From Oceanicoccus sagamiensis (GTDB lineage Bacteria > Pseudomonadota > Gammaproteobacteria > Pseudomonadales > Dasaniaceae), in the NCBI RefSeq assembly GCF_002117105.1, contig NZ_CP019343.1, positions 2,790,001-2,854,000 of the forward strand: 64,000 bases of DNA, in the 5' to 3' direction. Below, piece after piece: positions 9,475 to 35,321 of the stretch. The notes under the pieces are model-generated. The model had not been told where the DNA came from, searched no databases, and was given only the letters and a program-made list of their open reading frames with translations. Within the stretch, counting starts at the first letter, position 1. Each line of letters starts with the position of its first letter. A program made the position numbers and the translations under genes.

Positions 9475-11211
9475 ATGGTGTTTATTTTACATTCAGCTAT
9501 CGATGAAGGCTCAATCCGTGACAATATCGGCTTGCCTGAATATAGCTATTATTTCGTGCTAAAAGGTTTTTTGCCCGTGTTGGAAGATATGGGCGAAATC
9601 ATTACGGTAAAAGATACCGAAACACCCCTTGATGAATTGGTTAAAGCGCACCGCAAAGCGAATTCCTCACTGCTACAGCGACTATTACCCTCTGGTAACA
9701 AAGGGCAAGACCAGCCCGTGTTTCTGTCCTTTTCGCCGCCCAACCACGCTCCGGTGGATTTGGACTATAAAACGCTTTGTGTTCTAGCTTGGGAGTTTAG
9801 CAATATCCCCAGTGAAACATGGGATGATAATCCAAAGAATGATTGGCGTTATGTACTGGGTAAGCACGGTTCAGCTATTGCGCTTTCAACGTACTCCGTC
9901 ACCGCCATCAAGGAGGCTATGGGTGAGGACTTTCCTGTGGTGGCTATTCCCGTGCCGGTTTGGGATCGCTTCCAGTCCCTGCGTGATCGTTTGCAGGGCA
10001 AGACAGCGATTAATCCGGCGCAGCTGGATTTTAGCGGGCATATTGTTGACAGTCGGGAGCGTAGCCTGTCAAACGAGCAGCTTAACCCTATTGCCCAAAA
10101 AGACCAGGGGGCCTATCAGTGGAACGGTGAAGAGGTCACTCTTAACTTTAGTTTCAGAGATAAAGATTTTAATCGCCTTAATGGCTTCTATGCCCCGGAG
10201 CACTGGGGCGCATGGTCGAGGATTACCACACCCTGGGTGGAGCTGCCCTTTAATGTCAGCGGCTTAGTGGAGTTAACGGTAGAGGCCCACGGATATGGTG
10301 CCAATATTGGCCGTGAAATTACCGTATCTTTGGGGGCACAAACAGGCCAGATAACGCTAACCGATGCGCCAGTAAAACATAAGCTGATTTTTGACCTTGA
10401 TAGCCCCGCTGATAGCATCAGTTTTAGTGGGCTTGATATGACACCGGTGGAAGGGTCTGAAGATCGCAGAAAACTGGCTATTGGTATTTGCTCGGTGACG
10501 TTGGTCGAGGGAGCAGCAGAAGATCTGGTTGAAGCCAGTGCTGATGAACATGCCGATGCAGGCTTAAAGCTGGATGGGGTAGTTTACACCTCTATATTTA
10601 ACCCCAGTGATGGCCGTAAAAATTGGCTGGATATGGTGACTGCATTTTGTTGGGCGTTTAGAGATTGTGCAGACGCCACTCTGGTGCTAAAAATGACCAA
10701 TAAAGATTTGTCTAACTATATGGGTAAGCTGAATTTATTGATGTCAGAGCTGGCCCCCTACCAATGCAGAATTGTTGCTATACACGGCTTTATCGAAGAT
10801 GAAGATTATGCGCGTTTGGTGTCTGCAACCAGCTACTATGTCAATACCTCCAATTGCGAAGGTCTCTGCCTGCCTTTAATGGAATATATGTCCTGCGGCA
10901 TTCCCGCCATTGCGCCGACCAATACTGCTATGAAAGATTATGTCGATGATAATGTGGCATTTACCTTGCGCTCAAGTTTGGAGCAAAATGTATGGCCGCA
11001 GGATCCCCGTGACGCATTTAGAACGATGCGCTATCGATTGGATTGGGAGTCCTTAAGAGATGCCTATCTGGAAAGTTATCGTGTCGCCAAAGAAGATCCG
11101 GCCCGCTATCAAGCCATGTCAGACAATAATATGAATAAACTAAAACAGTATTGTTCCGATGCGGTGGTAAAAAACAAATTGCAGGATTTTTTTGCCAGCA
11201 TTGATCTTTAA
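9475..11211 (+). CDS. GT4-type glycosyltransferase with inserted GW/WGxWS module
   Basis: First gene of the plus-strand glycan operon, 578 residues. The N-terminal half (1-165) and C-terminal half (365-578) align along their length with the next gene, including SYYFVLKxFLP, AWEFxNIP and NDWRxVLGK in the first half, and NCEGLCLPLMEYMSCGIPAIAP, the GT4-type donor-binding EG...E region, in the second. Between the halves lies an extra module (about residues 230-345) that the neighbour lacks, with GFYAPEHWGAWS and a closing EDRRKLAIGICSV. Similar modules end the sulfotransferase at 15376 and the methyltransferase at 16762. No signal peptide or TM helix is visible, so cytosolic glycan assembly is likely. 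Sugar specificity is unknown. Confidence 0.8.
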   Translation: MVFILHSAIDEGSIRDNIGLPEYSYYFVLKGFLPVLEDMGEIITVKDTETPLDELVKAHRKANSSLLQRLLPSGNKGQDQPVFLSFSPPNHAPVDLDYKTLCVLAWEFSNIPSETWDDNPKNDWRYVLGKHGSAIALSTYSVTAIKEAMGEDFPVVAIPVPVWDRFQSLRDRLQGKTAINPAQLDFSGHIVDSRERSLSNEQLNPIAQKDQGAYQWNGEEVTLNFSFRDKDFNRLNGFYAPEHWGAWSRITTPWVELPFNVSGLVELTVEAHGYGANIGREITVSLGAQTGQITLTDAPVKHKLIFDLDSPADSISFSGLDMTPVEGSEDRRKLAIGICSVTLVEGAAEDLVEASADEHADAGLKLDGVVYTSIFNPSDGRKNWLDMVTAFCWAFRDCADATLVLKMTNKDLSNYMGKLNLLMSELAPYQCRIVAIHGFIEDEDYARLVSATSYYVNTSNCEGLCLPLMEYMSCGIPAIAPTNTAMKDYVDDNVAFTLRSSLEQNVWPQDPRDAFRTMRYRLDWESLRDAYLESYRVAKEDPARYQAMSDNNMNKLKQYCSDAVVKNKLQDFFASIDL

Positions 11212-11277
11212 GCTCGCTATGCTATGTCGCCCATTGTTTTATTGTGTATTAAATGGTTTTAACAGGTCATCATTGAA

Positions 11278-12555
11278 ATGATTATTATTGTGTACTCGGA
11301 AGAAAACGAAGACTCTATAAAGGATAACCTTGGTGCTCCTGCTTATAGTTATTACTTTGTCTTAAAATCTTTTCTTCCCGCGCTAGAACAGTTGGGTAAA
11401 GTGATGGTGGTTGAAAAACCACAGGACGCCGATGAAATTTATGCCAAGGCTAACGGCGAGCACTGCGTCTTTCTTTCCTTTACGGCTCCCCATGAAACAG
11501 AGATCAATCTTAAGTGCCCAACCATCCCGGTATTTGCCTGGGAGTTTTATAATATCCCTGACGAATTTTGGGATGGTGATATCAGCAATGACTGGCGTTT
11601 TGTCTTGGGTAAACTGGGTTGGGCGATAACCCATTCGCGTTTTACCGTTGAGTCAGTCCAGACTGCGGTTAGAGTTGATTACCCGGTTATCTCAGTACCT
11701 GCCCCGGTATGGGACGGTTATGCCCCTGAATCTGCTGCCGAGATTGGTCAGGTGGTGGATAATTTTAGCCTTGCGGTTGAGGGATTATCTTTCGATAGCA
11801 GAGATTGTGCTGTCGATGACCATCTGAACGGCGGTGAGCTTTCCAAGGCAATCAGCAACGAAGCTCGCCAGTTTGATATTACTGGCATCACCTATACCAC
11901 GATTTTTAATCCTATTGATGGCCGTAAAAATTGGCCTGAGCTGATGTGGGCCTTTTGCTGGGCTTTTAAAGAACAGGAAAACGCCACCCTGATTCTTAAG
12001 TTAGCAGCACACCGCGCCGACGATATGGTGGATGCTTTATTATCCGACCTGAGCCGTGCCACACCTTTTAAATGTCGGGTAATTGTTATTGCCGGTTATC
12101 TTGATCAGGTTAATTATGATGTGCTGTTAAATAATACGACATATATTGTTAACGCCTCCCGGGGGGAGGGGCAGTGCCTGCCGCTAATGGAATATATGGC
12201 CCGGGGTAAACCGGCTATTGCGCCAAAACATACCGGGATGGAGGACTATATCGATGAGTCCGCGGCCTTTATTGTACGCACCAGTCTGGAACCCAGTCAC
12301 TGGCCCCATGATCCTCGCCATTCCTATAGAACACTAAGGCATCGTATTAATTGGGAATCATTGATTGAAGCTTACGAGGCCAGTTACCAGGTAGCTGTTA
12401 ATGATCAACAAACCTATGCCAGTATGGGGCGGCGTGCCAGCGAAATACTTGAGCAACACTGCTCGCTTAGGGTCACGGTGGATAAGCTACGCGCATTTTT
12501 TGATGACCATCGAACAATGAGCGAACGCTATAAGCAGCGCCGCAATACTGGTTAG
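11278..12555 (+). CDS. GT4-type glycosyltransferase, paralogue of preceding gene
   Basis: This 425-residue protein is the compact paralogue of the preceding gene. It shares the N-terminal DSIKDNLGAPAYSYYFVLKSFLP and AWEFYNIP stretches, FNPxDGRKNW in the centre, and the C-terminal RGEGQCLPLMEYMARGKPAIAPKHTGMEDY donor-binding region. It lacks the inserted module; a short unrelated linker (about residues 155-200) takes its place. The pair therefore shows the insertion or loss of a domain at a defined point. It ends 5 bp before the MBOAT gene and belongs to the same operon. Confidence 0.82.
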   Translation: MIIIVYSEENEDSIKDNLGAPAYSYYFVLKSFLPALEQLGKVMVVEKPQDADEIYAKANGEHCVFLSFTAPHETEINLKCPTIPVFAWEFYNIPDEFWDGDISNDWRFVLGKLGWAITHSRFTVESVQTAVRVDYPVISVPAPVWDGYAPESAAEIGQVVDNFSLAVEGLSFDSRDCAVDDHLNGGELSKAISNEARQFDITGITYTTIFNPIDGRKNWPELMWAFCWAFKEQENATLILKLAAHRADDMVDALLSDLSRATPFKCRVIVIAGYLDQVNYDVLLNNTTYIVNASRGEGQCLPLMEYMARGKPAIAPKHTGMEDYIDESAAFIVRTSLEPSHWPHDPRHSYRTLRHRINWESLIEAYEASYQVAVNDQQTYASMGRRASEILEQHCSLRVTVDKLRAFFDDHRTMSERYKQRRNTG

Positions 12556-12560: not shown

Positions 12561-14022
12561 ATGTTATTTAACTCGTATGAGTTTATTTTTCTTTTTCTCC
12601 CTATAGCCCTTTTGGGTTATTACCTGCTGCTGCGTAAAAATACTATGGCCCCTGCGATGGGTTTTCTTATCGCGGCTTCTTTGTTTTTCTACGGTTGGTG
12701 GAATGCCGCCTATCTGCTAATTATTATTGCCTCTATTATTGTTAACTATGGCCTGTCTCTGCTGTTATCCCGATTTAAAGGGGGGGCAGAAAGGCCGTGT
12801 TAATACTGGGTGTAACCTTTAACCTGTGCTTGCTCGGTTATTATAAATATGCCGATTTTCTGATTGATAACGTTGCGGCGATTGGGCTGATTGATAAAGC
12901 CACTCTGAATATTGTTTTACCTCTGGCGATATCGTTCTTTACCTTTCAGCAAATTGCGTTTTTGGTTGATAGTTACAAGTCCATCACCCATGAATATAGC
13001 TTTACCAAGTATGTGTTGTTTGTGTGCTTTTTCCCGCAGTTGATTGCCGGACCTATTGTTCACCACGCGCAGCTTATACCGCAGTTTAGCTACCAGAATA
13101 TCAAGAAGAATCTATCGACTAAAGTAGCCAAAGGGTTGTCGATTTTCACTATCGGTCTGTCCAAAAAAGTATTGATCGCTGATTCTCTGGCACCGATTGC
13201 CAATGCGGTATTTGATAATCCTGAACAGTTAACTCTGGGTTCGGTAGATGCCTGGGTGGGCGCAGCGGCTTATACCCTGCAAATTTATTTTGATTTTTCC
13301 GGCTATAGCGATATGGCCATTGGTCTGGCATTAATGTTTGGTTTGTATTTGCCGATCAACTTTAACTCCCCCTATAAAGCGATCTCCATTATTGATTTTT
13401 GGCGGCGCTGGCATATGACCTTGTCTGCTTTTTTACGGGACTATTTATATATTGCCCTAGGCGGTAACCGAAAAGGGGGGCTTAGGCGCTATAGCAATCT
13501 GCTAATTACCATGCTGTTGGGTGGGCTATGGCATGGCGCTAATTGGACCTTTGTAATGTGGGGGGCGATGCACGGGGTCTACCTGGTGATCAATCATAGC
13601 TGGCGCTATCTGTTAAATAGCCTGGGCCGGTCATCGCTGGCAGACAGCGGTATATATAAACTGTTAGCCCTGCTATTAACATTTTTCTGTGTGCTTAATA
13701 GTTGGGTTGTGTTTAGGGCTGCGTCTATAGATGATGCGATGGCCTTATACCAAAGTATGTATTCTCTGGTGCCTGGCCAGCTGTATATTGCCGATAAACT
13801 ATCTTCAGCCCTCGGCATGATTGCTGCGGCTTTAGCGGTGGCTTTTGTGATGCCCAATTCGCTGCAAATTATTCAATACCCAAAAACGACACTGCAATCC
13901 ATGATGGGGCGCTTTTTTCAATGGCGTGGCAACGCTTTATGGGGGGCTACGCAGCGATGCTTTTGATTGCCTGTACCCTTAAGCTCAACAGCTTTTCAGC
14001 CTTTTTGTATTTTCAGTTTTGA
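12561..14022 (+). CDS. MBOAT-family O-acyltransferase (AlgI-like), frameshifted twice
   Basis: Three consecutive frames encode one AlgI/DltB-type membrane O-acyltransferase of about 487 residues: 12561 to about 12785, then to about 13945, then to the stop at 14022. The first part has FLFLPIALLGYYLL and SLFFYGWWN; the second has GYSDMAIG, FWRRWHMTLSAFLRDYLYI and the presumed catalytic His in MLLGGLWHGANWT; the third ends in SAFLYFQF, a typical AlgI terminus. Breaks fall in G7 (12780-12786) and G6 (13941-13946), and one extra G at each restores a continuous frame. An undercalled homopolymer is most likely, true inactivation or slippage switching being alternatives. It probably moves acyl groups across the membrane for the SGNH partner that follows. 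Confidence 0.82.
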
Positions 14023-14024
14023 CT

Positions 14025-15325
14025 ATGAAAGCGTATTTCTATTCATTTACACTGATTGTTAGTCTGTCATTAGTCGGTTTGTCACTGACTAATTACTTGA
14101 TTAACCCCTATGGCTTTTTTCATTCGCCACTGGATACTGCGATTGCTAAGCATAAACCCTATGCCAAGCAGTACTTGCGTATTACGGTGCCTTATAAACT
14201 GGCCTTTAATGAGTTTAGTGCGCTTTTTATTGGCTCATCCCGTGTTGGTAGGGGCTTGAACTGTTCTTTTGTAGCGGCCTCAGAGGATTGCTTTAATGCA
14301 GCTATACCCAGTACCTCATCTTATGACTTATACCGTATTGCACAGCAGAAGTTAGAGTCGGGGAAGCTGGACGCTCTCTATTATGGTTTGGATTTTTACT
14401 CTTATCCCTACCAGAAACTATCAATGCAGCCTTTTGATGACTCACGGCTGGTAACCAATCAAGAAGGTGGTTTGAACGCCGGGTTCTGGCAGCAGTTTAT
14501 CACCGATTATTTCAGTGCTCTGGTGTCATTAGAGGTGACAGAACATAGTGTAAAAACGCTGGGTGCTCAGGGGAAAGTAGCGGTAAACTTTAGTGCGGGG
14601 GGATGCCCATTGTTTTTAGGCAGGGAGGGTGGGGCTTTGACACTGAGCGATTAAATCGTGAACGTCCCATCAAGGCCGCTGAACGCCAGTATCGACGCTT
14701 TATCTTTTTATATAATTTCTTTGACGATCATTATGATGAGCTAAAGTTGGAGGCAGTACGGACTGATACTGATCTATTGTCGACGATTGACCAAAATCTC
14801 ATTTGGTTAGAGAAGGTGATTGAGCTGAGTTACCAGAACGAGGTGAAGTTAAACCTGTTTATCAATCCTTCTTATGTGTTTTACCGTGAGTATCTTGCTG
14901 TTTCAGGTTTAGAAGAGGGCTTGTTGTATTGGAAGCAAAGAGTAGTAGAAATTAATGAACGTTTGGCCGGTCAGTATGGCCAGGCTGCTTTCCCGGTGAT
15001 GGATTTTTTTGGCTATCAGGCGATAATGGCCGAAGAGCTACCCTCAAAAGCTAACCAGCATAGACTCAATCCCTGGTTTCAGGACTTGGTCCACTTTAGC
15101 CCTGATTTAGGTAAAATTATGATGGCGGATTTGCAAGCGTCATGCTCTGGAGGCGAAGATTTAACGCTGGGGTTTTGCCTGAATACACAAAACCTGGAGC
15201 ACAAAAAACGCCTGGATAAGCAATCTAGAAATCGCTTTTTATCCAGTCAGTCAGAGAGTTATCAGCAGTTTGTTAAAGACGCAGAAAGCAAGCGGCAAGC
15301 AAAACAGAAAGTGCGAATACAGTAA
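14025..15325 (+). CDS. SGNH/AlgX-AlgJ-like acyltransferase partner, frameshifted
   Basis: One gene of about 433 residues in two frames: 14025 to about 14602, then from about 14603 to 15325. An N-terminal signal anchor (about residues 5-25) should place it in the periplasm. FIGSSRVGRGL resembles the nucleophile block of SGNH proteins, and DLVHFSPDLG near the C-terminus resembles the D-x2-H block. This fits the partner role that AlgX/AlgJ or DltD proteins play with an MBOAT channel. The break is in G6 at 14597-14602 and adding one G joins the frames. The MBOAT stop (14020-14022) lies 2 bp before the chosen ATG, indicating coupling. Family similarity is weak, so the role rests partly on position. 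Confidence 0.65.
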
Positions 15326-15375: not shown

Positions 15376-16743
15376 ATGCGGATCTATTTACATATCGGTT
15401 TTCCAAAAACCGGCAGTACAGCCATTCAGGCTCATTTGGTGATGAACCGGCAATGGTTGAGTAGCCGGGGTTATGCGCTTGCCGATACCGGGCATTCAGA
15501 GGGTTATGGCCATGTGCAGCTATTTGAAGATCCGGCACTGTCGCTGCTGGATAGCTTAAAACAGGAAATTGACCAGTTGCAATCTCAAGGTATTGAGCAT
15601 GTTATTTTATCATTTGAAGGCGTGGTAACCTTAGGTCGCAAGAAACTTGAAAAAATCCATGCGGCTTTATCGGAACATGAGATTTTTATCGTCGCCTATA
15701 TTCGAGAACAGTCGGAAGTTGTGCAGTCGGGCTATTTTCAAGCGGCCAAGCAACGGCCCCAAAAAAGAATTATTGCGGATTACCATAGCAATAAAAAACT
15801 GATTACCCCAAAACATATTAATTACCAAACAACACTGGAGAAATTTGAAGGTGTTTTTGGTCGTGAAGCGCTGATAATCCATGTTTATGAAAAAGAGGCT
15901 TTAAAAGAGCAGGATGTCGTAGTTGATTTTCTCGCTATTCTGGGGCTTGAAAAAGACGATAACTTTGTTAAAGCAGCGACTTTGCAGAATATCAGTCTGG
16001 ACCCTGGGGCTGTCTATCTGTTGAATATGTTGGATGGTTATTTCAATGATGCAGAAGGGCGAGAAAAACTGGTTGATACCCTGCTGACGCGCATTGCTAA
16101 TGAAGGTGCCAAGGGTAAGTATTTTCTAAGCCGGGAAAATACCGACTATATTCGCGAATTTTATACCGCCTCTAACCGCTATGTTCAGCAGCGCTATATA
16201 AAAAGTAGTGACTATCAGGATTTGTTTTCCTACAGTAAAAAAACGCACTGTGATAATTTTGAGCAGTTTGCAGCGATGGGCTCTGAGACACTGGAGTTTC
16301 TAAACCAGTATAATAAGTTCCGTAGTTGGCAGGGGGTCGAGCTGACGGGCAAAGATTTACAGTCCTTGGCCTCTCCGGCTGATGGTTGGTCTTCTCCAGA
16401 GCCCTGGGGTGTATGGTCGGATAATGATGAATCTTTTTTACGCTTTAGATTACCGGTGACGACGACATCACCCTTTAAACACACTCTGGCTATTACATTG
16501 ACCGGTGATTATTTTGAAGGCAATGACCAGACCCGAGTGATCATTAATGATCAAATCGATGAGACGGTGTCACTGCTAGAGCATGAGTTTCGAGTATCAA
16601 TTCCGGCGCTGGATCAATATCGCACCGTGGAGATTAAGTTATGTCATCAGCATCCCACTTCGCCAGCGGATATCGGTGCGGGAGATGATATTCGACGACT
16701 GGCCTATGCCTTGAAAAAACTTAGCTACCAAGTCATAGATTAA
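15376..16743 (+). CDS. Sulfotransferase-family protein with C-terminal GW/WGxWS module
   Basis: This 455-residue protein opens with IYLHIGFPKTGSTAIQAHL, the PAPS 5'-phosphosulfate loop (PKTGST) of the sulfotransferase superfamily. A VAYIREQSEVVQSGY segment near residue 110 fits the 3'-phosphate binding helix. The catalytic domain runs to about 310. Residues 325-455 form a separate module with DGWSSPEPWGVWSDN and a closing DDIRRLAYALKKL, shared with the glycosyltransferase at 9475 and the methyltransferase at 16762. The ATG follows a TTGAGG site. Substrate is presumably a glycan under construction, supplied with PAPS by cysC/sat at 33471-35321. Confidence 0.8.
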   Translation: MRIYLHIGFPKTGSTAIQAHLVMNRQWLSSRGYALADTGHSEGYGHVQLFEDPALSLLDSLKQEIDQLQSQGIEHVILSFEGVVTLGRKKLEKIHAALSEHEIFIVAYIREQSEVVQSGYFQAAKQRPQKRIIADYHSNKKLITPKHINYQTTLEKFEGVFGREALIIHVYEKEALKEQDVVVDFLAILGLEKDDNFVKAATLQNISLDPGAVYLLNMLDGYFNDAEGREKLVDTLLTRIANEGAKGKYFLSRENTDYIREFYTASNRYVQQRYIKSSDYQDLFSYSKKTHCDNFEQFAAMGSETLEFLNQYNKFRSWQGVELTGKDLQSLASPADGWSSPEPWGVWSDNDESFLRFRLPVTTTSPFKHTLAITLTGDYFEGNDQTRVIINDQIDETVSLLEHEFRVSIPALDQYRTVEIKLCHQHPTSPADIGAGDDIRRLAYALKKLSYQVID

Positions 16744-16761: not shown

Positions 16762-18129
16762 ATGCCTAAATTGATTGATAATACGATGCTTCAGTGGCTC
16801 GCCAGACGTTTAGGTCTGGCGAGTTTATTAAGCTGCCCCTTATCTATTCCCGGCTTAGATTCATCCTTAAGGATGTTGGTGCATGGCGAGGCTGAGGAGC
16901 TGGTATCCAGGCAGATTAAAGCGCAAGGTATTTGGGAGCCGGGTGAGACTGCGCTACTAATGCATTTTTTACAGCCTGGTCATGTGTTTATTGATATAGG
17001 CGCCAATATCGGTTATTTCACGGTGCTGGCAGCGCAGCTGGTTGGTGAGCAAGGGCAGGTGATTGCTTTTGAGCCTGACCCTGATAACTTTTCTCTGCTG
17101 CAAAAAAATTGTCGGCTGAATAATAGTCGGGCGATAACGGCCAACGTAGCTCTGGCCGACTTTGAGGGAGAAGCGCAGCTGTATATCAATGAGGATAACC
17201 TGGGTGATAACGCGCTGCATAGCGCCGATCAGGCTGCCCGCTCAAGGACTATCGCCGTGACTCGGGGAGACAGCTTTTTAAGCCAGCACACAGCCAGAGC
17301 CGATTTTATAAAAATCGATACGCAGGGAGCGGAGCAGTTGGTGCTTACTGGTATGCGTAAATTTATTGCCGCCAGTGTCCCTGCCTTAACCATGATTGTA
17401 GAGTTCTCGCCGAATAGTCTTAAACGCTCTGGGGGTAGTTCTAGTGAGTTACTTGGCTTGTTAACTGATTTGGAACTGTATCTGTATGTCTTTATTGAGC
17501 AGAGCAATACCTTGCTCAGCTGCTCGCTATCGCAATTACTTGCTTGGGCAAAAATTACTGAGATGGATCATGACTCGGAGGGCTTTGTTAATTTAGTCTG
17601 TAGTGGCAAGGCGATCGAAAGCTCAGCGGCACTGCAAGTTCAACACTGTGCCGATGGCAAAGAGAATGAATTAATCGATTATCTGGTGGCAAGTATCTAT
17701 CAGCCCTGGGATGGCTCTTTATGCCCCCCCGCATTATTTGCCCAATACCTCTATTTTGTTGAGGGCTGGTCTGTGCCTGAGCCCTGGGGAATTTGGTCTG
17801 ACGGCAAACGCTCGGTGATTCGCTTCTCTGTTAGCGAATCTGTAATGACAGGGACGGTGCATCTGGCAATAAAGGGGCGCTACTATGTTGAGCAGGGCAG
17901 CACTGAACTGATAGTGAATGATAAAAGTTTGGGTGTGCAGGACCTGAGTGATTATCGTGTCGCGCTGGCTGCTACCGATTTTTTTGCGCCAGAGGTTCAT
18001 ATTGTGCTGCTACACCAAGGTACCGAGTCGCCTTTTACCCGGCAGGGGGATGACGATAAAAGAGAGTTGGGGTTTGGCCTGGAGTCTTTGTTATGGTCTC
18101 TGGATAGTGGCGGTCAGGATGCTTCGTAA
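16762..18129 (+). CDS. FkbM-family methyltransferase with C-terminal GW/WGxWS module
   Basis: Of 455 residues, about 65-285 form a FkbM-type SAM-dependent methyltransferase: VFIDIGANIGYFTVLA is motif I, IAFEPDPDNF the acidic loop, and DFIKIDTQGAEQLVL the family's conserved later motif. FkbM members typically O-methylate sugars or secondary metabolites. Residues 325-455 carry the accessory module with EGWSVPEPWGIWSDG and a closing DDDKRELGFGLESLL. The gene overlaps the acyltransferase downstream by 11 bp. A sugar O-methylation role in this locus is inference from family and neighbours. Confidence 0.85.
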   Translation: MPKLIDNTMLQWLARRLGLASLLSCPLSIPGLDSSLRMLVHGEAEELVSRQIKAQGIWEPGETALLMHFLQPGHVFIDIGANIGYFTVLAAQLVGEQGQVIAFEPDPDNFSLLQKNCRLNNSRAITANVALADFEGEAQLYINEDNLGDNALHSADQAARSRTIAVTRGDSFLSQHTARADFIKIDTQGAEQLVLTGMRKFIAASVPALTMIVEFSPNSLKRSGGSSSELLGLLTDLELYLYVFIEQSNTLLSCSLSQLLAWAKITEMDHDSEGFVNLVCSGKAIESSAALQVQHCADGKENELIDYLVASIYQPWDGSLCPPALFAQYLYFVEGWSVPEPWGIWSDGKRSVIRFSVSESVMTGTVHLAIKGRYYVEQGSTELIVNDKSLGVQDLSDYRVALAATDFFAPEVHIVLLHQGTESPFTRQGDDDKRELGFGLESLLWSLDSGGQDAS

Positions 18130-19186: not shown

Positions 19187-20124
19187 CTACAATGACTACC
19201 CATAAATTAGAAGAAACTCCCTGGCTATTTAATATTGAGTTGACTAATCGCTGTCCGCTCAAATGTGTGATGTGCGCCCGAACCGAGCATATGACGCGGG
19301 CCGAAGGCGATATCAGCATGGAACTTTATACCCGTATTGTCGATGACTTATGCGAGATTTCCCCGCCGCGAAAAATGAAAAACCGCTTGCTCAGGTTGCA
19401 TCAATTTGGCGAAAGCCTGGTGCATCCGGAATTTGACAGCATGATTCGCTATGCCGCTGACAAAGGTTTTCGCGTGGCGCTATCAATTAACCCTGTGTTG
19501 CTAAAGCCGGTTATTGCCGATCGCCTGCTCGATTCCGGCATTGATTCTTTGTATATCTCACTGGATGGTCATGATGATGAATCGTTTTTTCAACTCCGGG
19601 GTTTAAAGAATGCCTATGATGATTCGGTAGCGCGGCTGGAAGCTTTTCTGGCGAAAAAAACCGAGCGGCAATTGCCGATTCATATTGAATTATCCATGAT
19701 CGATTTTAAGCTTAACCGTGAAAGCATTGCCAAGATGCACGCTTACTGGGAGCAGCATCCGGGTATTGATGAGTTTAGAAATAAAGAATTTATGAAATGG
19801 GATGGCTCCGCTGATTCAGTCAATGCTCTGGCCGATGATGATACCGGGCGGCGTATTGAAGAGACGATTGAAAAGCGCGGTGGTTGTTCTCTGCCATGGA
19901 ATCAAATGGCGGTACTGTGGGATGGCAGGGTCGTGCCCTGTTGCTATGATTATGACGGCAAATATACCGTGGGTGATGTAAGAGAAAAGTCGTTGTTGGA
20001 AATTTGGCACGACAAGCCGATGCAGGCTTTACGCGAAGAGTTTGAGAGCAAGCAGGTAAGCAATGACTTGTGTAAAAACTGCGAATTTAGTCCGGGCAGC
20101 ATTCCGCTGACCCAATTATCCTGA
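19183..20124 (+). CDS. Radical SAM/SPASM domain protein
   Basis: At 313 residues this is a small radical SAM enzyme. CPLKCVMC (about residues 24-31) gives the CxxxCxxC cluster motif. The C-terminal SPASM-type region has CSLPW, then VVPCCYDY, then DLCKNCEF, enough cysteines for one or more auxiliary [4Fe-4S] clusters. It is the last gene of the plus-strand operon, overlapping the acyltransferase by 4 bp. No peptide precursor is evident nearby, so a sugar or glycan-intermediate modification seems more likely than RiPP maturation. That is inference; the reaction is unknown. Confidence 0.85.
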   Translation: MTTMTTHKLEETPWLFNIELTNRCPLKCVMCARTEHMTRAEGDISMELYTRIVDDLCEISPPRKMKNRLLRLHQFGESLVHPEFDSMIRYAADKGFRVALSINPVLLKPVIADRLLDSGIDSLYISLDGHDDESFFQLRGLKNAYDDSVARLEAFLAKKTERQLPIHIELSMIDFKLNRESIAKMHAYWEQHPGIDEFRNKEFMKWDGSADSVNALADDDTGRRIEETIEKRGGCSLPWNQMAVLWDGRVVPCCYDYDGKYTVGDVREKSLLEIWHDKPMQALREEFESKQVSNDLCKNCEFSPGSIPLTQLS

Positions 20125-25160: not shown

Positions 25161-26197
<1,037 letters not shown>

Positions 26198-27495: not shown

Positions 27496-28526
27496 TAGAG
27501 CAAAGCCTCTATCACTTTAGCCCAGTTAATATCCATGGCCTCAACCATGGTTTTGGCATGGTTGCCCAACTGCTTGGCCAGAGCGCGATCGGACCAGGCC
27601 TGGTCCAGTTTTGCCGCCAAATCGATGGCATCGGCTTTGGCGACTAAACCGGTTTGCTGGTCTTTGACAAACTCGATGGCCCCGCCGGCATCTTCCAGCG
27701 TAATAACTCCTTTGCTAGAGAACATGGCTTCCGGTGTGATATAGCCATAGTCCTCCTGGTAGGGGGTAAATAGCACCATTAAAGCATTGGCATACAGTTC
27801 AAATTTTTCTTGCTCGGAAATATGTCCCAGCCAAGTGATTTGATGCTCTACACCTAATGAACTCGCTTGCTGTTTTAGCTGTTGAAAGTAATCGTCGCTA
27901 TCTGCTTTGCCAGAAAAAACAATTTTAACCGGCTCTTGGGTATGGGCCAGAGCTTCGATGACCAGTTCCTGACGCTTAATCGGGTTGATGCGGCTAGGGA
28001 AATAAAAATAATCGTTGTACTCGCCACAGTAAAAATGCTCAATATTTCTGGGTGGGGGATATAACGCTTCTGAGCTTATGCCGTTGTACTGTAGCAATCG
28101 CTCTGAGACGGTGTTGGAGATGGTATAGATGTTTTTTTCCTGGCTGAGGGAGGCGGTATCCTCTCTGCGTATCAGGTTTCTCACTTGTTTGCCGTCTGGC
28201 ATATGATTCAGGTCAGAAAATTGTGTATTCCACAAATCATAAGCGGTTCTATGTTGGTGCAAAATCCAATAGGACTTATTGGGGTGGTTGACTAACCAGG
28301 CTGGAAATTTAAGCCCGATCACTTTATCAACGCTGCTATCGATATCGAGTAATTTACAGGCCAGAATATGATTAACCAGTGACTCTTGCGGATACCATTT
28401 AAACGGTATTGTCATTATCTCGGCGTTATGGCCTTGTTCAAGCAGAGCCGCAACAAGATCTTCCGCCAGCACTTCCGCACCGCCATAGCAGAAAGGTACT
28501 TGCGTATTCAGTATTAATATATTCAT
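27495..28526 (-). CDS. GT4 glycosyltransferase
   Basis: The 343-residue enzyme starts ILILNTQVPFCYGGAEVLAEDLVAALLEQGH, a typical GT4 acceptor-domain start. YFPSRINPIKRQELVIEAL and FTPYQEDYGYITPEAMFSSKGVI are the donor-binding motifs. TAATG overlaps on both sides couple it to its neighbours. Such enzymes usually add mannose, rhamnose or related sugars from nucleotide donors; specificity here is unknown. Confidence 0.85.
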   Translation of the reverse strand: MNILILNTQVPFCYGGAEVLAEDLVAALLEQGHNAEIMTIPFKWYPQESLVNHILACKLLDIDSSVDKVIGLKFPAWLVNHPNKSYWILHQHRTAYDLWNTQFSDLNHMPDGKQVRNLIRREDTASLSQEKNIYTISNTVSERLLQYNGISSEALYPPPRNIEHFYCGEYNDYFYFPSRINPIKRQELVIEALAHTQEPVKIVFSGKADSDDYFQQLKQQASSLGVEHQITWLGHISEQEKFELYANALMVLFTPYQEDYGYITPEAMFSSKGVITLEDAGGAIEFVKDQQTGLVAKADAIDLAAKLDQAWSDRALAKQLGNHAKTMVEAMDINWAKVIEALL

Positions 28527-29176
28527 TACTTGGGCTCTTTGTTAGGCTTTCTATTGGCCTCTTTATCAGGTGGCGCCCACGAGGCGTTGCCCGTTTCTTC
28601 AGCCAGCCATTCGGCGATACGGTTTTGGTGCTTACTTATCATGTTATCTACTTCACCGGCATCATGGCGAGTTGCTTCAATTAAACCCCGCTGATATTCC
28701 TGTTCTTCCTGTAACCGGGCTATTTTCCTCAAGCCAATGGCAAGGCGAATCAGAAAACCTATGACGGGTACTCTGCCTATACGATAAAATAAGTGGGCTG
28801 TGGCAAAGTCGCTAATGATTACCTGCTGCTGTTGTGCTTCATCGCTATTCATTAAGCTTTTGATAATCTCAATCCTTGGTACCTTGTCGACGCGCAATGC
28901 TTTCAGGATATTGCTCATGCCGGTCTTGTCGGGGGCTCTTTTAAATAACGCTTGATAGCAAAAATGGACAAATTCACCATCATACAATGTGAGAAATTCT
29001 TCCAGCTGATAGGTTTTCCTATTATCTGTTCTATCGATTTCAGAACCAGGCAAGATTAGCGCTTCGATATCAAACATAGCAGACCTGTGATTGCTGTTGT
29101 TACTCAATGGCGATGAGGGGCGCTCCTGAATATTTTTTTTCACCTGATCCAGCAGGCGGTTGCCAGTTTTATTCAT
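28526..29176 (-). CDS. DUF4214-like protein of glycan operon
   Basis: This 216-residue protein contains a DUF4214-like segment (about residues 58-112: FVHFCYQALFKRAPDKTGM ... LMNSDEA), a short module often seen beside glycosyltransferases and in surface-protein clusters. After it come a hydrophobic or amphipathic helix (VPVIGFLIRLAIGL, about 140-153), a coiled stretch and a K/P-rich tail. It overlaps the double sulfotransferase by 8 bp and the GT4 gene as TAATG. A membrane-associated assembly or scaffold role is possible; function is unknown. Confidence 0.7.
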   Translation of the reverse strand: MNKTGNRLLDQVKKNIQERPSSPLSNNSNHRSAMFDIEALILPGSEIDRTDNRKTYQLEEFLTLYDGEFVHFCYQALFKRAPDKTGMSNILKALRVDKVPRIEIIKSLMNSDEAQQQQVIISDFATAHLFYRIGRVPVIGFLIRLAIGLRKIARLQEEQEYQRGLIEATRHDAGEVDNMISKHQNRIAEWLAEETGNASWAPPDKEANRKPNKEPK

Positions 29177-30790
29177 GGGGCGCTGTGCTCACAGTTGAGG
29201 GTTTATTAAAGGTTGTTTGATACAGTTGGTAATCTTCAGGGAAGGACTCTTTGAGTTTTTGCTCTATGCTGAGATCTCGAAAACGGCTGAGGGGAAGGTG
29301 ATCATAGGGCTCTAATTTATTCGGTAAAAGGTCAACCAATAATTGATTGTTACCGTCGGCGCTAATATTATCGCAATGAGTGTCTGCGCTTTGATCTTTC
29401 AGTATGGCGATGGATTGCGACGTTATTGTTTGTAAATCCACTTGCAGCTGTTCGATCTGGTCTGATCGGTATATCTTAGTAAAATTTTTAATGCCTTTTA
29501 AATAAAAGTGCTGCGCTACCCAGTGTGGGTCCCGGGTTTTTATTGGGTTTGCAATAATGGCATCAATAAATTCCCTGAAAGTAATGCCTTTTTTATGGTC
29601 GATGGCGTCTTCGCCCTGCACGACTTTTAATACTTTGTCAGTATGAAAATGATTGATGGTGGTCATTCTATTTTCAACAAACATATCAATATAGACATCA
29701 ATCATTCTGTCCATGGGTTCTCGAATTACGGAAAATTTAAAATAGTCATCCCTGTGAGCAATTTCTCGCGCCTGTTTTAACGGAATGTCTTTTAGTTGTG
29801 CACCCGTATTAAATTGGTCGGTAACGATATCGAGACTAAAGTGCTTTAGCTGGTCTTTATGCTGGATATCACTCAGGTCAATCATCAGTTGTTTTAGTGA
29901 GGTGTTGCCGCATTTGGCGATGGGGGTGTAAAGCAGTTTGTAGGGGGTGGAGATCATTGCGCCGGCGAGTGGCCAGGGCATACCGTTGTCATTGTTCTTG
30001 CTCCAAAATTGCTCGGCTGTGATTGTTGGGGCTTTTATAAAGTTGCCCATCTGTTGGTATTTTAATGGGTCTTTAATGGTGTTGATCAGTCTGTCGCTGT
30101 TTTCGCAAACAAAGTTATAGAGTTTAATGTCTTCCTGGTTAAGCTGTTTAATCAGGGCGGATGTCTTGTCATCAATACTGATTTTGTGGGTATAGTTTTG
30201 TTTGCTGTTATTGACATTGTCTAACAGGATGGAGTCCATATTCAGTAGGCGAGCAATTTCTGTTTGAAACGGTAGCAGGTGGCCGGCATCACCAATCAGG
30301 CAATCATGTTTTTTCAGCGTTTTTTTCACGCCTTCAAAGCTGGCGCTGTAGCGGGATAGATAACTGCACTGAATATTCCTTATTTCTTTGCGAAATGATC
30401 GGCAGTTTTTGATGGAGTTATACAGGCTGTCTGGGTCAATGCCTTTTTTAATCCAACGCGCCAGTTGCTTTTCTCGCTCTGCCTTTGCTTCCACTGTTGT
30501 CGCAAGGTCCGGGCGGGTGTAGTAACTATAAAGGGAGATAACGCGGTCTATAGGGTTTCTAACGATGGCGCAGTAAAGGGGGTTTAGCTTGCGTGGATAA
30601 AAAGCAATGCCTTTATGGCCCCCATCAGCAGTTTATTAGCGACTTTTAATCTGGGGTAGAAAAAATGAGGTGGCCTTGAATCGAGGCCCAACCAAAACAG
30701 CTTGTCATTATCCAATACGTCATACAATGTGCGGCGCAGGCTGGTGCCAGCTGACTTGGGAATATGTAAAAAGACGATTTTTGGATTCAT
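29169..30790 (-). CDS. Two-domain sulfotransferase-family protein, frameshifted
   Basis: One gene of about 540 residues read in two frames: 30790 to about 30620, then on to 29169 (an open frame from a GTG at 30494 marks the second part). Joined, residues 1-280 carry a sulfotransferase domain (FLHIPKSAGTSLRRTL, then GGHKG, then VRNPIDRVISLY at 77-88). A second domain at about 280-540 has YTPIAKCGNTSLKQL (288-302) and FSVIREPMDRMIDVY (353-367). Both have the 5'-phosphosulfate loop and 3'-phosphate helix. The break is at C5 on the plus strand (30619-30623); adding one C restores the GGHKG motif, which argues the sequence and not the gene is wrong. First gene of the minus-strand glycan operon. 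Confidence 0.78.
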
Positions 30791-30952: not shown

Positions 30953-32356
30953 TTAAATAGAATTAATGACTTCTGGCGCACAGCGCTCGGCAGATAATAC
31001 GGCCGCTTCCATGCCGGATTTTCTCGCTTCAGTATGTTCGCCTGCAAAGTGCAATGGTCCCTCAACCAGTGGCACCGCATGGGCGAAGCGGTTGATATCG
31101 CCAGCATTATATTGAGCATAGGCGCCACGGCTAAATGGGTTGTTTTGCCAGGAAATAACCTTGCTGACTTCCAGCTTACCCGCTGCCGACGGGCGAGCCT
31201 TTTCAAACGCCTGTAATATCTGCTGGCCAATCTGCTCGCTGGGCAGGGAGTCCACTGCCATGGCGTTATTGCCCGCTAGCCAGGCCCTTACCATGGTGAC
31301 TTTTTTGTCGGGCCCCTGCTGGCTAAACACCATGCCAATAGGGGTGTCGGTCCACATATTTGGGCTTAACTCATCCTCCAGCCAAAACTCACTTTTAGGT
31401 TTAAAAAACACATGAGTGGCTCTACTGTAGTCCATAGACTTAATGGCTTGCCGTTTGGGGGCGCTAATTAATAACTGTAGATCCATCTCTCTCAAGGTAG
31501 AGAAGGGGGTTGTTACTATGCAGCGTTTTGCCGTGTAACTACTGCCGTCCTGGCAAGTGACAACGGCTTGGGTGCCTTGCTGCTTTATTTGGCTGACTGG
31601 TTTATTGAGTTGTGGTGGTTGTTTTAAATCAGCGGCCATCGCTTCCGGTATTCTTTGGGTTCCGCCCTGAACAAATTCTGCCCCTAAGGCCCCTTTAATA
31701 ATGGCGTTTTTGCGCAGCATTTGCAGGGCAGACACTTTACTGATGTCATTGGCCATAAAATTACTATTAATTAAGCGCATGGCTTCATTACTGGCGCCCA
31801 GACTTTTCAAATGCTCGGCCAGCGGAATATCCAGATGGCTGAAGTCTGGCGATAACCACTGCTGTGGTTCGGCCAGTGTTTCGCCCTGGTTAAGGTAATG
31901 CCATAAAAGCCAATTGGGTTGAAAATCTCGCTCTGATGGCGACAGCTTATTGGCTGGGTGCTTGCCCCATGCACGGGCCCCCAATAATTGTTGGTTGATG
32001 GCGAAGGTCATACCAGGGGCCATCATGTCTGAGCCCGCTTCAAATTTTATATTCAGGCGGTTGCTGATCGCGCGCAGCACGTCATAGTCCAGGCCTACTT
32101 GATTGGCACCGGCCTCGGGGTGGCCCTCCATATCATCGAGTGTATGGACACGGCCTCCCACACGATTATTGGCCTCTAAGACCAGGACATTGGCCCCTTG
32201 TTGCTCCAATAAATAAGCGGCATGCAAGCCGGATAAACCGGCCCCGATAACAATTACATCGTATTGGCTGGGGTTGGCCCACAGAGGATGAATCAGACCG
32301 CTGGCGGCAACGGTACTGGCAGTTTTCAGAAAGTCTCTGCGATTAAACGGCTTCAT
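30953..32356 (-). CDS. Tat-exported FAD-dependent amine oxidase (monoamine oxidase family)
   Basis: At 467 residues it opens with a twin-arginine signal: NRRDFLKTAS followed by a hydrophobic stretch to about residue 28. Next comes VIVIGAGLSGLHAAYLL (FAD Rossmann motif, about 34-50), then LEANNRVGGRVHTLDD. LHFAGEHTE near the C-terminus is the usual second FAD contact of flavin amine oxidases. It should be exported folded with FAD to the periplasm. Substrate could be an amine, a polyamine or an amino acid. It is divergent from trmH and separated from the glycan operon by about 160 bp. Confidence 0.85.
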   Translation of the reverse strand: MKPFNRRDFLKTASTVAASGLIHPLWANPSQYDVIVIGAGLSGLHAAYLLEQQGANVLVLEANNRVGGRVHTLDDMEGHPEAGANQVGLDYDVLRAISNRLNIKFEAGSDMMAPGMTFAINQQLLGARAWGKHPANKLSPSERDFQPNWLLWHYLNQGETLAEPQQWLSPDFSHLDIPLAEHLKSLGASNEAMRLINSNFMANDISKVSALQMLRKNAIIKGALGAEFVQGGTQRIPEAMAADLKQPPQLNKPVSQIKQQGTQAVVTCQDGSSYTAKRCIVTTPFSTLREMDLQLLISAPKRQAIKSMDYSRATHVFFKPKSEFWLEDELSPNMWTDTPIGMVFSQQGPDKKVTMVRAWLAGNNAMAVDSLPSEQIGQQILQAFEKARPSAAGKLEVSKVISWQNNPFSRGAYAQYNAGDINRFAHAVPLVEGPLHFAGEHTEARKSGMEAAVLSAERCAPEVINSI

Positions 32357-32491
32357 AGTCGGTCTCTCAGTCTTATTGGTTAAGCCAGCTTACTGCGCAC
32401 GATTGAGGCTGATCTTTGTTATTTATCAAAACGACGTTGTATCATGCTCTTACAACCTATAATAGCTGCTTTTAGCAGGCCCATTAATACC

Positions 32492-33211
32492 ATGACCCCA
32501 GAACGTTTTAACAGACTACGTGCAACCCTTGATAAGCGCCAGCCCGATTTAACGGTGCTGACTGATTACGTCCATAAGGGGCGGAATTTATCCGCTATTG
32601 TCCGTACCGCAGATGCCGTGGGAGTGGGAGATGTGCACTGTGTGATTGGCGATAAAGATTACCGCTCTTTTCGGGGGACGGCTTTAGGCAGCCATCGCTA
32701 TGTCAAGGTGCACCGGTATCGTGAGCTGCAAAGCCCGGTCAGTGAATTAAAAGCCAAGGGCTTTCAAATTGTGGCGGCGCATTTATCCGAGCAGGCGGTG
32801 GATTACCACGATGTGGACTTTACCAAACCGACGGCTTTGTTGATGGGGGCGGAGAAGGACGGTATCAGTGATGAGGCCAGTGAGTTGGCTGATATTCATG
32901 TAACGGTGCCGATGGTGGGCATGGTAGAGTCATTTAACGTATCGGTAGCGGCGGGTATTATCCTTAGCGAGGCCCGACACCAGCGTGAATTGGCGGGGCT
33001 GTATCAACAGCAGCGAATCGATCAAGCGGAGTATGAGCTGTTGTTCTTTGAGTGGGCCCATCCCAAAATCAGGGACTTTTGCCGCAGCCATAACTTTGCC
33101 TATCCACCTTTAAGGGAGGATGGCGAAATTATTGATGCCTCTGGCTGGTACGCGCAAAAGCGGGAAATTCTGGCCCAGCGTCGGGAAGAGCAACGGATAG
33201 GAGCGGTTTGA
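32492..33211 (+). CDS. trmH: tRNA (guanosine(18)-2'-O)-methyltransferase TrmH
   Basis: I choose the ATG at 32492 (MTPERFNRLRATLDKRQPDLTVL), which matches the family's start; the frame is open from 32444. About 239 residues. This is a SpoU/SPOUT knotted methyltransferase: HKGRNLSAIVRTADAVGVGDVH, then LLMGAEKDGIS and VPMVGMVESFNVSVAAGI are motifs 1-3 containing the SAM pocket. It methylates G18 of tRNAs. The TGA overlaps the ATG of a tiny membrane protein gene. Confidence 0.93.
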   Translation: MTPERFNRLRATLDKRQPDLTVLTDYVHKGRNLSAIVRTADAVGVGDVHCVIGDKDYRSFRGTALGSHRYVKVHRYRELQSPVSELKAKGFQIVAAHLSEQAVDYHDVDFTKPTALLMGAEKDGISDEASELADIHVTVPMVGMVESFNVSVAAGIILSEARHQRELAGLYQQQRIDQAEYELLFFEWAHPKIRDFCRSHNFAYPPLREDGEIIDASGWYAQKREILAQRREEQRIGAV

Positions 33212-33393
33212 TGAGCAATTTGTTGTTGATCCTGGGGGTTTTATTCGTCGCTCTGGTCGTTGTGGTCAAGCTAACAGAGCGATTTGCCAAGCCCGTGGAT
33301 GAGCGGCAGCAGGCAAATATGTCCCGTTTAGCCATGGTACTGATTATGCTGCTGTTGGTGCTCGGCTTAATTCGGCACTGGATGGGGGGGTAA
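33211..33393 (+). CDS. Small two-helix membrane protein, hypothetical
   Basis: About 60 residues with two hydrophobic segments (about 3-20 and 42-58) separated by a charged loop (KLTERFAKPVDERQQANMSR). Its ATG overlaps the trmH stop (TGATG), so coupled translation is likely. No family recognised. It ends with a G7 run just before the TAA that does not disturb the frame. Confidence 0.6.
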   Translation: MSNLLLILGVLFVALVVVVKLTERFAKPVDERQQANMSRLAMVLIMLLLVLGLIRHWMGG

Positions 33394-33398
33394 AGCCT

Positions 33399-33428
33399 TT
33401 GGCTATATGCGGCCAAATCATGTACAAT
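33399..33428 (+). promoter_or_regulatory. Sigma-70-like promoter of the cysC-sat unit
   Basis: TTGGCT (33399-33404) and TACAAT (33423-33428) are spaced by 18 bp and lie about 43 bp upstream of the cysC ATG. The -10 is a good match, the -35 fair. No regulator operator is obvious. Confidence 0.42.
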
Positions 33429-33470
33429 CCGCGCTCCAAAAATCTAACAAAGCAGCCTTGAGATACCAGC

Positions 33471-34088
33471 ATGACTGAACAAAAAGCAACCAATGTCCAT
33501 TGGCATGAGGGTGAAGTTACCCGCGAAGACCGCAACAAAATCCTTAAGCAAAAAGGCGCTACCCTATGGTTTACTGGCCTTTCTGGCAGTGGCAAAAGCA
33601 CTGTAGCCGTGGCTCTGGAGCAGGCCTTGGCGGCAAAAGCTAAGCTGACTTACCGTTTAGACGGTGACAATATCCGTTTGGGTATCAATAAAAACCTGGG
33701 CTTTAGCGCCGAAGACCGCACCGAAAATATTCGCCGCATTGGTGAAATTTCAAAATTATTTGTTGATGTGGGTGTTATTACCCTGTCCAGTTTTGTCAGC
33801 CCCTATCGTGCAGACCGTGATCTGGTTCGTGAGTTACACGAGGCGGCGGGTATGCAGTTTATCGAAGTGTTTGTTGATGTTCCTCTTGATGTGGCTGAAA
33901 GTCGCGACCCCAAAGGCTTATACAAAAAAGCCCGCGCCGGTGAAATTCCAAATTTCACCGGTATTTCTGACCCCTATGAAGAGCCGCTAAACGCAGAAGT
34001 GGTGCTTAATAGCCACGAAATGTCTCTAGAAGAGGAAGTGAATGTACTGCTTGCTCTCTTGGAAGAGCGCGGCCTTTTAGACGCCTGA
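33471..34088 (+). CDS. cysC: Adenylylsulfate (APS) kinase
   Basis: The 205 residues have TLWFTGLSGSGKSTVA (P-loop, about 33-48), then LDGDNIRLGINKNLGFS and DRTENIRRIGEISKLF, all hallmarks of APS kinase. It phosphorylates APS to PAPS. It lies 42 bp upstream of sat, making a PAPS-forming unit. PAPS is both the reducing-pathway intermediate and the donor for sulfotransferases. With several sulfotransferase domains in the neighbouring locus, the second use is the attractive one. A CysDN system is not present in the window. Confidence 0.95.
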   Translation: MTEQKATNVHWHEGEVTREDRNKILKQKGATLWFTGLSGSGKSTVAVALEQALAAKAKLTYRLDGDNIRLGINKNLGFSAEDRTENIRRIGEISKLFVDVGVITLSSFVSPYRADRDLVRELHEAAGMQFIEVFVDVPLDVAESRDPKGLYKKARAGEIPNFTGISDPYEEPLNAEVVLNSHEMSLEEEVNVLLALLEERGLLDA

Positions 34089-34130
34089 TAACACGCCTTC
34101 GCCCATTATTTTAACGTTAAAGGAAACACA

Positions 34131-35321
34131 ATGATTAAACCCCATGGCGCAGACGAGCTAAAGCCATTATTCGTCTATGATACTGAGCAGCACAGCGCTC
34201 TTACCGCTGAAGCACAAACACTGCCTTCACTACTGCTAAGTTCAGCTGCTGCCGCCAACGCAGTGATGTTGGGTGCTGGTTACTTCACACCCTTAAGCGG
34301 TTATATGAACCTGGCAGATTCACTGGCCGTGGCTGAAAACCTGCACACGGTTGATGGCTTATTCTGGCCCGTGCCCATTGTTAATCTGGCTAACGATGTC
34401 AGCAGTATTGGCGATGCCAGGCGTATTGCACTGCGTGATCCCAATGTTGAAGGCAATCCTGTGCTGGCAATTATGGATGTTGATGCGATTGAAACGGTTA
34501 GCGATGAGCAAATCGATTTTATGGCAGAGAATATCTTCGGCACCTTGGACCCGGAGCACCCCGGTGTGGCTGCTTTTAAAGGTCAGGGCAACAACTTATT
34601 ATCCGGCGCTATTCAGGTATTAAACTTTAGCTATTTCCAGACTGATTTCCCCGATACGTTCCGTACTGCGGTAGAAATTCGCAACGAAATGGCAGAGCGC
34701 GGCTGGAATAAAGCGGTAGCTTTCCAAACCCGTAACCCCATGCACCGGGCCCACGAAGAACTATGTCGTATGGCACAGGAAGATTTGGGCAGCGACGGCA
34801 TTTTGATTCATATGCTGTTAGGTAAATTGAAGCCGGGCGATATCCCTGCGGATGTTCGCGATAACTGTATTCGTAAAATGGTTGAGGTGTACTTTCCGGA
34901 GAATACCGTGATGATCACTGGCTACGGTTTCGATATGTTATACGCAGGCCCGCGTGAAGCCGTATTACATGCTGTATTCCGTCAAAACTGTGGTTGTACA
35001 CACTTTATTGTGGGTCGCGATCACGCCGGTGTCGGCGACTATTATGGCGGCTTTGATGCGCAAACCATTTTTGATGAGAAAGTACCTGCCGGTGCTTTGG
35101 ATATCGAAATCTATCGCGCTGACCACACAGCTTATTCTAAAAAGCTGGATAAAGTGATTATGATGAAAGATGCACCTGACCACAGCAAAGAAGATTTTAT
35201 TTTGCTGTCCGGTACTAAAGTGCGTGAGATGTTAGGTAATGGTATTGCGCCACCGCCTGAGTTTTCTCGCCCTGAGTGCGCCAGGATTTTGATGGATTAT
35301 TATCAGAGTTTGGATGCTTAG
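34131..35321 (+). CDS. sat: Sulfate adenylyltransferase (ATP sulfurylase, Sat type)
   Basis: At 396 residues this is the single-chain Sat enzyme, not the CysDN heterodimer usual in enterobacteria. AFQTRNPMHRAHEELCRMA holds the QxRNPxHxxH active site, and GRDHAGVGDYYGGFDAQ the second nucleotide-binding stretch. It makes APS from sulfate and ATP. The ribosome site is AAAGGAAAC. It forms a unit with cysC upstream. A hairpin repeat element follows and may end the transcript. Confidence 0.95.
   Translation: MIKPHGADELKPLFVYDTEQHSALTAEAQTLPSLLLSSAAAANAVMLGAGYFTPLSGYMNLADSLAVAENLHTVDGLFWPVPIVNLANDVSSIGDARRIALRDPNVEGNPVLAIMDVDAIETVSDEQIDFMAENIFGTLDPEHPGVAAFKGQGNNLLSGAIQVLNFSYFQTDFPDTFRTAVEIRNEMAERGWNKAVAFQTRNPMHRAHEELCRMAQEDLGSDGILIHMLLGKLKPGDIPADVRDNCIRKMVEVYFPENTVMITGYGFDMLYAGPREAVLHAVFRQNCGCTHFIVGRDHAGVGDYYGGFDAQTIFDEKVPAGALDIEIYRADHTAYSKKLDKVIMMKDAPDHSKEDFILLSGTKVREMLGNGIAPPPEFSRPECARILMDYYQSLDA

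Follow-up and report, generated by a model that had tools for sequence, protein, structure and literature searches.

Introduction

The common polysaccharide antigen (CPA, or A-band antigen) of Pseudomonas is a D-rhamnan, and its locus carries gmd, rmd, wzm, wzt and wbpXYZ. In this study, we analyzed a 24.7-kb island within a window of 64,000 nucleotides from Oceanicoccus sagamiensis (contig NZ_CP019343.1, positions 2,790,001 to 2,854,000). The island resembles Pseudomonas CPA and other gmd-rmd loci in its pair of Gmd and an Rmd-like reductase, in the adjoining GT-B glycosyltransferases (GTs) and in Wzm/Wzt export. It differs from Pseudomonas CPA in its sulfotransferases (ST1 and ST2), two acyltransferase genes, FkbM methyltransferase and radical SAM protein, and in a Wzt of 246 amino acids (aa) without the C-terminal carbohydrate-binding domain seen in most rmd loci that have a Wzt match. 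With moderate confidence, we regard it as a horizontally acquired island for a surface polysaccharide dependent on an ATP-binding cassette (ABC) exporter, most likely the O-chain of lipopolysaccharide (LPS), consisting largely of D-rhamnose (6-deoxy-D-mannose), with sulfotransferases that would draw on the common pool of 3'-phosphoadenosine 5'-phosphosulfate (PAPS).

Sulfated L-rhamnose capsules of proven structure, with PAPS genes inside the cluster, are described for the marine bacteria Cobetia marina KMM 1449 (PMC11766843) and Vibrio sp. KMM 8419 (PMC11641403). The authors of the latter consider PAPS genes together with sulfotransferase genes a hallmark, and describe second copies of cysC, cysN and cysD (PMC11641403). 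Both systems share with the island an ABC-exported rhamnose-containing polymer and sulfotransferase genes in the cluster, but they differ from it in making L-rhamnose from dTDP-rhamnose (dTDP-Rha), in a kps-type exporter and in their PAPS genes. Sulfotransferase genes do lie in the island, ST2 being frame-broken as assembled, while PAPS synthesis genes do not. A Kps-type capsule locus was ruled out, as PF05159, the family of KpsC/S-type capsule genes, is matched nowhere in the genome. The structure of a sulfated O-polysaccharide has reportedly been solved for Poseidonocella sedimentorum, which could be a precedent. No report of a sulfated D-rhamnan was found in the titles or abstract openings searched (PMC11355966 included), a coverage that most subscription papers fall outside.

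Results

The island and its borders

By blastn, the sequences on both sides of the island (window 5692-7804 and 32490-35315) align at 80-81% identity to two genus relatives, G002 and G006 (stretches L051/L053), where 15 bp lie between them. The gene order in these relatives agrees, as homologues of window 4367-7809 run straight into SpoU-cysC-sat. G002 and G006 are 99.8% identical here, and therefore represent in effect one case of island absence. In G001, G003 and G005, 20-38 kb each around SpoU-cysC-sat gave no match to island open reading frames (ORFs) at 1e-8. The G+C content is 0.468 within the island vs 0.494 and 0.484 in the flanks, and no tRNA genes were found in the window. Loss of the island from G002 and G006 could also account for its absence there; acquisition is what we infer.

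Two convergent gene groups occupy about 9.4-30.8 kb (Table 1). The plus-strand group consists, in order, of a GT with a DUF7024 module, a second GT, an MBOAT O-acyltransferase, its partner-like gene, ST1, the FkbM methyltransferase, an OafA-type acyltransferase and a radical SAM/SPASM gene. The minus-strand group consists of ST2, a DUF4214 gene, two GT-B genes, Gmd, an Rmd-like reductase, two further GT-B genes, Wzm and Wzt.

Chain synthesis and export

The original prediction, made from the sequence alone, had described an ABC-exported locus of the D-rhamnan type with sulfotransferases and other decoration genes, and the gene content supports this description. Gmd, the Rmd-like reductase and Wzm/Wzt were each recovered, by an equivalog cut-off, PDB matches and Pfam cut-offs, respectively. 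The predicted minimum of six glycosyltransferases also agrees with our count of six GT-B enzymes, five of which pass a Pfam cut-off. Among the six genus relatives, the best match to the Rmd-like protein was in G003 (1.3e-22, 81 bits). Elsewhere in the genome, Wzy_C is matched three times, Glycos_transf_4 twice and NTP_transferase five times, which gives candidates for WaaL, WecA and ManC.

Sulfotransferases

The three sulfotransferase domains predicted in two proteins were borne out unevenly. The second domain of ST2 matches PF03567 (Sulfotransfer_2; aa 180-358 of 29169-30494, 1.5e-19). Its first domain is split, with the P-loop IPKSAGTS upstream in another frame and a G5 tract (30619-30623) between the pieces; the remainder, in the second frame, has the motif usual for binding of the 3'-phosphate and is homologous to an intact tandem paralogue (below). 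ST2 had no match among PDB sequences to E 0.1, and none at E 0.001 in any of the six genus relatives. An intact tandem paralogue of 546 aa is encoded in the same genome at 856,957-858,594 (L004:625-2262, minus strand), and its residues 56-486 match ST2 with 36% identity (2.3e-62). The 38-kb stretch bearing this paralogue also has an integrase-like gene, recognized by eye. Against PHROGs, to E 0.01, nothing was obtained for ST1 or ST2, and the paralogue gave one weak match (0.0086).

ST1 has no Pfam sulfotransferase match. Its N-terminal part has matches in 10 of 369 genomes of the class, its own included, and a seven-row profile, in which ST1 was combined with six sequence pieces taken from five of the other nine genomes, retrieved the PDB sulfotransferase 3rnl at 6.9e-6. 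A pattern scan of named genomes returned 22 pattern matches, none of them a relative of ST1 by tblastn. In the AlphaFold model, the N domain is of low confidence, and we make no claim about its fold.

ST1-type domains were also seen in genome G058 (L159:7144-14057, plus strand), where one protein has three and a second has two; Pfam names neither protein a sulfotransferase. They sit among ManC-type and phosphomannomutase-type genes and GT4-like glycosyltransferases, with neighbours (L159/L168) comprising a CysQ-like protein of the inositol-phosphatase family, an adenosine 5'-phosphosulfate (APS) kinase, a CysN-like protein (by eye) and a CysD-like PAPS_reduct protein of 504 aa with an N-terminal extension. 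The 54 kb read there held no Gmd or Rmd orthologue. Polysaccharide loci with ST1-type proteins close to PAPS genes thus do exist.

PF03567 is matched five times in the genome, once below cut-off. One match lies in the window and one at 857 kb, a pair is found at 1.566-1.568 Mb, and the match at 4.34 Mb is weak. The family is also matched in four of the six genus relatives, in one of these only below cut-off. The region at 1.55-1.57 Mb contains a WaaP-family kinase, a heptosyltransferase, rmlBACD-type genes and a second Wzm/Wzt pair. G002 and G005 each have an equivalent of one sulfotransferase of this region, likewise next to the kinase, the G005 kinase being assigned by sequence resemblance. 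As this LPS-core sulfotransferase is found in O. sagamiensis and two relatives, several species or strains of the genus probably use PAPS for their LPS.

Origin of PAPS

The identities of cysC and sat were confirmed. APS kinase and ATP sulfurylase have one match each in the genome, both in the window and outside the island. Five of the six genus relatives have the pair (sat 88-95% and cysC 87-97% identical) and no ST2 match. In the remaining relative, G004, whose genome is 64% complete, sat was not matched. Double-cysteine motifs are typical of APS reductases. CysH, the one PF01507 protein of the genome (212-214 aa), lacks them and scores best with PAPS-reductase models, though under their cut-offs, and looks from its sequence to be PAPS-type. 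With a CysH that seems PAPS-type and single copies of cysC and sat, cysteine synthesis most likely requires cysC. The cysC-sat genes are a housekeeping pair, and their adjacency reflects where the island lies.

Comparison with other gmd-rmd loci

Named genomes were scanned with an Rmd alignment, and the best 80 loci of at least 580 relatives (at least 593 stretches), among them loci of Pseudomonas, Burkholderia and Massilia, were compared with up to 10 kb of DNA on each side. Gmd (at least 400 bits) is at most 3 kb away from rmd in 76 loci, and a homologue of GT4 (at least 150 bits) in 50. Wzt (at least 140 bits) occurs anywhere in the locus in 22, and 21 of 23 Wzt matches are at least 405 aa long, compared with 246 aa in the island.

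Sulfotransferases were screened for by regular expression and phmmer in 3,357 ORFs from these 80 and five further loci, with plausible candidates checked by Pfam. Three sulfotransferase-like proteins were obtained, from Dyella acidisoli (L103, 26.8 bits, cut-off 22), Dyella sp. (L131, 16.6 bits) and Burkholderia anthina (L102, 20.1 bits), the last two below the Pfam cut-off. All three came from the regular expression, phmmer with ST1, ST2 and the paralogue finding none, and the screen may miss divergent sulfotransferases. At 1e-3, CysC was found in one of the 80 loci and Sat in none; the CysC homologue, in Pseudomonas jinjuensis (L075:20371-20862), is about 10 kb from rmd. Sulfotransferase and cysC-sat genes are thus largely absent from homologous loci, an outcome that the original prediction had named as refuting it. 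This scarcity weakens the notion that sulfated D-rhamnan synthesis is a conserved system, but does not weaken the case for O. sagamiensis itself.

Both Dyella loci resemble the island in that some 13 kb contain the genes for Gmd, Rmd, Wzm and Wzt together with that for a sulfotransferase-like protein, but differ in that the sulfotransferase-like part is fused to Wzt_C. The Wzt_C of the fusion is homologous to that of the local Wzt.

Putative binding modules, decoration genes and frame breaks

A DUF7024 or DUF7024-like module is common to ST1, the FkbM methyltransferase and one GT (9475-11211). In a structure search with a predicted model, the ST1 module appeared to have a fold like that of the carbohydrate-binding modules (CBMs) CBM35 and CBM6 (50 rows, residues 317-455). 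No sulfotransferase chain was among the 50 matches listed, which says little, as all of them fall within 317-455. Toxins among the matches were taken to reflect the common beta-sandwich fold only. No paper was found for DUF7024 by name.

The OafA-type acyltransferase and the FkbM methyltransferase pass Pfam cut-offs, as had been expected. From the proposed MBOAT/SGNH pair, the MBOAT member was upheld by Pfam, and the SGNH assignment of 14019-15325 was not, since no Pfam family passed its cut-off there among matches examined to E 1. As assembled, the reading frame changes near G7, G6 and G5 tracts in MBOAT, its partner and ST2, respectively. The MBOAT homologue of G002 is intact (517 aa) and 57% identical to that of the window; it stands with a partner gene, itself without a Pfam match, beside the LPS-core locus (L186:5285-7907, plus strand). 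A conserved batB-like gene (named by eye) at 4.39 Mb (L042, about 2277) is likewise in two frames in O. sagamiensis and in one open frame in two relatives, the sole such break among about 17 genes of this genome compared with relatives. The breaks in the island may therefore be assembly errors. Phase variation was considered for the G-tract breaks, but assembly error is as likely, and decay is a third possibility.

The frame breaks, the radical SAM/SPASM gene and the DUF4214 gene had been passed over previously, as had an amine oxidase gene and SpoU (30953-33211), which are unrelated to polysaccharide. A PEP-CTERM protein is encoded at window 40504-41292.

Table 1. Features of the island, its flank and related loci (window coordinates unless a stretch is named).
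Feature	Position	Strand	Basis or remark
Island	7805-32489	.	24.7 kb; not at the same place in two near-identical genus relatives
GT-B glycosyltransferase with internal DUF7024 module (aa 214-343)	9475-11211	+	Pfam
Glycosyltransferase like the preceding one (by eye), no DUF7024 match	11278-12555	+	just under Pfam cut-offs
MBOAT O-acyltransferase, two frames	12561-13966	+	passes Pfam; frame changes near G7 tract at 12780
MBOAT-partner-like gene, two overlapping frames	14019-15325	+	frame changes near G6 tract at 14597
ST1, sulfotransferase-like N domain and C-terminal DUF7024 module	15376-16743	+	P-loop FPKTGST; family profile
FkbM methyltransferase with DUF7024-like C-terminal module	16762-18129	+	FkbM passes Pfam; module weak, 13.2 bits
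OafA-type acyltransferase	18119-19186	+	Acyl_transf_3 passes Pfam; start by eye inside ORF 17948-19186
Radical SAM/SPASM protein, no specific family	19183-20124	+	Pfam
Wzt ATPase, 246 aa	20138-20878	-	passes Pfam cut-off; no Wzt_C match
Wzm permease	20880-21641	-	passes Pfam cut-off
GT-B glycosyltransferase, GT3	21689-22825	-	Pfam
GT-B glycosyltransferase, GT4	22976-24310	-	Pfam
Rmd-like GDP-4-keto-6-deoxy-D-mannose reductase	24243-25160	-	PDB sequence matches and family of gmd-rmd loci
Gmd, GDP-mannose 4,6-dehydratase	25160-26194	-	TIGR01472 equivalog, 466.5 vs cut-off 415 bits
GT-B glycosyltransferase	26209-27495	-	Pfam
GT-B glycosyltransferase	27495-28526	-	Pfam
DUF4214 protein	28526-29176	-	Pfam
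ST2, tandem sulfotransferase gene, frame-broken	29169-30790	-	break near G5 tract; open part 29169-30494
cysC, APS kinase	33471-34088	+	core-genome flank, outside island
sat, ATP sulfurylase	34131-35321	+	core-genome flank, outside island
Sulfotransferase of LPS-core cluster	L184:17867-18613; L186:8727-9470; L188:9673-10440	-; -; +	this genome and two genus relatives
Sulfotransferase-like protein fused to Wzt_C	L103:12316-14088; L131:12311-13981	-	Dyella gmd-rmd-wzm-wzt loci

Discussion

Considering the above results, we have proposed a model for the island in which GDP-mannose made elsewhere in the genome would be converted to GDP-D-rhamnose by Gmd and the Rmd-like enzyme, and chain assembly by the GT-B enzymes would take place in the cytoplasm, on a lipid carrier. 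The chain would be exported by Wzm/Wzt and joined to the LPS core by a WaaL-like enzyme. ST1, and ST2 if it is expressed intact, would sulfate it with PAPS from the common pool, made first of all for cysteine synthesis by the housekeeping cysC-sat genes, and the CBM-like modules may hold ST1, the FkbM enzyme and one GT on the growing chain. A sulfated D-rhamnan is a plausible product of this scheme, though an unproven one.

Several results weigh against this model, and some of them speak for an unsulfated O-antigen of the D-rhamnan type, with sulfotransferase genes that are in decay or serve another glycan, the LPS core for example. In the assembly, ST2 has a broken frame, as do MBOAT and its partner, and with these three genes affected sulfation may depend on ST1, whose assignment as a sulfotransferase is based on a family profile, with an N domain modelled at low confidence. 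A sulfotransferase of the LPS-core locus exists in this genome and in two relatives, and 77 of the 80 rmd loci have no sulfotransferase-like protein by regular expression and Pfam. The second Wzm/Wzt pair at 1.55 Mb, with a Wzt bearing Wzt_C, means that the main O-chain of the organism may be the one specified there. There is also a precedent in the Aeromonas salmonicida wbsalmo cluster, which is a Wzm/Wzt-dependent O-antigen cluster, as the island would be, and has an ORF with a sulfotransferase domain beside wzt, and yet specifies a polymer in which sulfate was not found (PMC4483657). It differs from the island in its polymer of L-rhamnose, glucose and mannosamine (ManN) and its Wzt of 438 aa. 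Nevertheless, the ST1 gene has an unbroken frame, its product includes a carbohydrate-binding-like module, and it stands between glycan-modifying genes, and the break in a distant conserved gene suggests that those in the island may be errors of assembly. We consider an unsulfated chain unlikely, but it is an alternative to be taken seriously.

Another possibility is a sulfated polymer of a different sugar, either GDP-6-deoxy-D-talose arising from the reductase or a mixed chain in which D-rhamnose is minor. The sequence tests used support the reductase family itself and do not separate Rmd from a 6-deoxy-D-talose reductase, a further point against our model. The best match of the reductase among PDB sequences, 4lw8 (1.7e-90), is named merely a putative epimerase; the six GTs are probably more than a simple homopolymer needs, and the radical SAM/SPASM gene would also be accommodated. 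However, the second PDB match, 2pk3 (1.5e-42), is a GDP-6-deoxy-D-lyxo-4-hexulose reductase, and homologues of Gmd and GT4 go with it in the majority of the 80 named loci. We hold a different sugar to be rather improbable. The dedicated PAPS supply of the original prediction is rejected as highly improbable, because the cysC-sat pair, although cysC begins 2.7 kb past the ST2 start and the Cobetia and Vibrio clusters do contain PAPS genes (PMC11766843, PMC11641403), consists of single-copy core genes present in relatives without the island and probably needed by a CysH that seems PAPS-type, with no second copies of the kind reported for the Vibrio cluster. The lesson for method is that a neighbouring cysC-sat pair can be taken as the mark of a sulfation locus only when it is an additional copy.

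Returning to the sulfated D-rhamnan that we favor, the modules allow a wider speculation, which we regard as doubtful. Built-in binding modules, DUF7024/CBM35-like here and Wzt_C in Dyella, might steer modifying enzymes, sulfotransferases included, in ABC-exported O-chains of the D-rhamnan type, so that sulfate would serve as a chain-end mark or one that reads chain length. In Dyella, where exporter and sulfotransferase have the same kind of binding domain, it might be a cap, whereas marking in O. sagamiensis, whose Wzt is without the domain, would be independent of export. The Wzt_C-sulfotransferase fusions and module-tagged enzymes provide a concrete, testable hypothesis for the placement of modifications on O-chains. 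If the model is true, a sulfated antigen of the A-band type would be an unusual surface chemistry, and phage binding and attachment would likely be affected.

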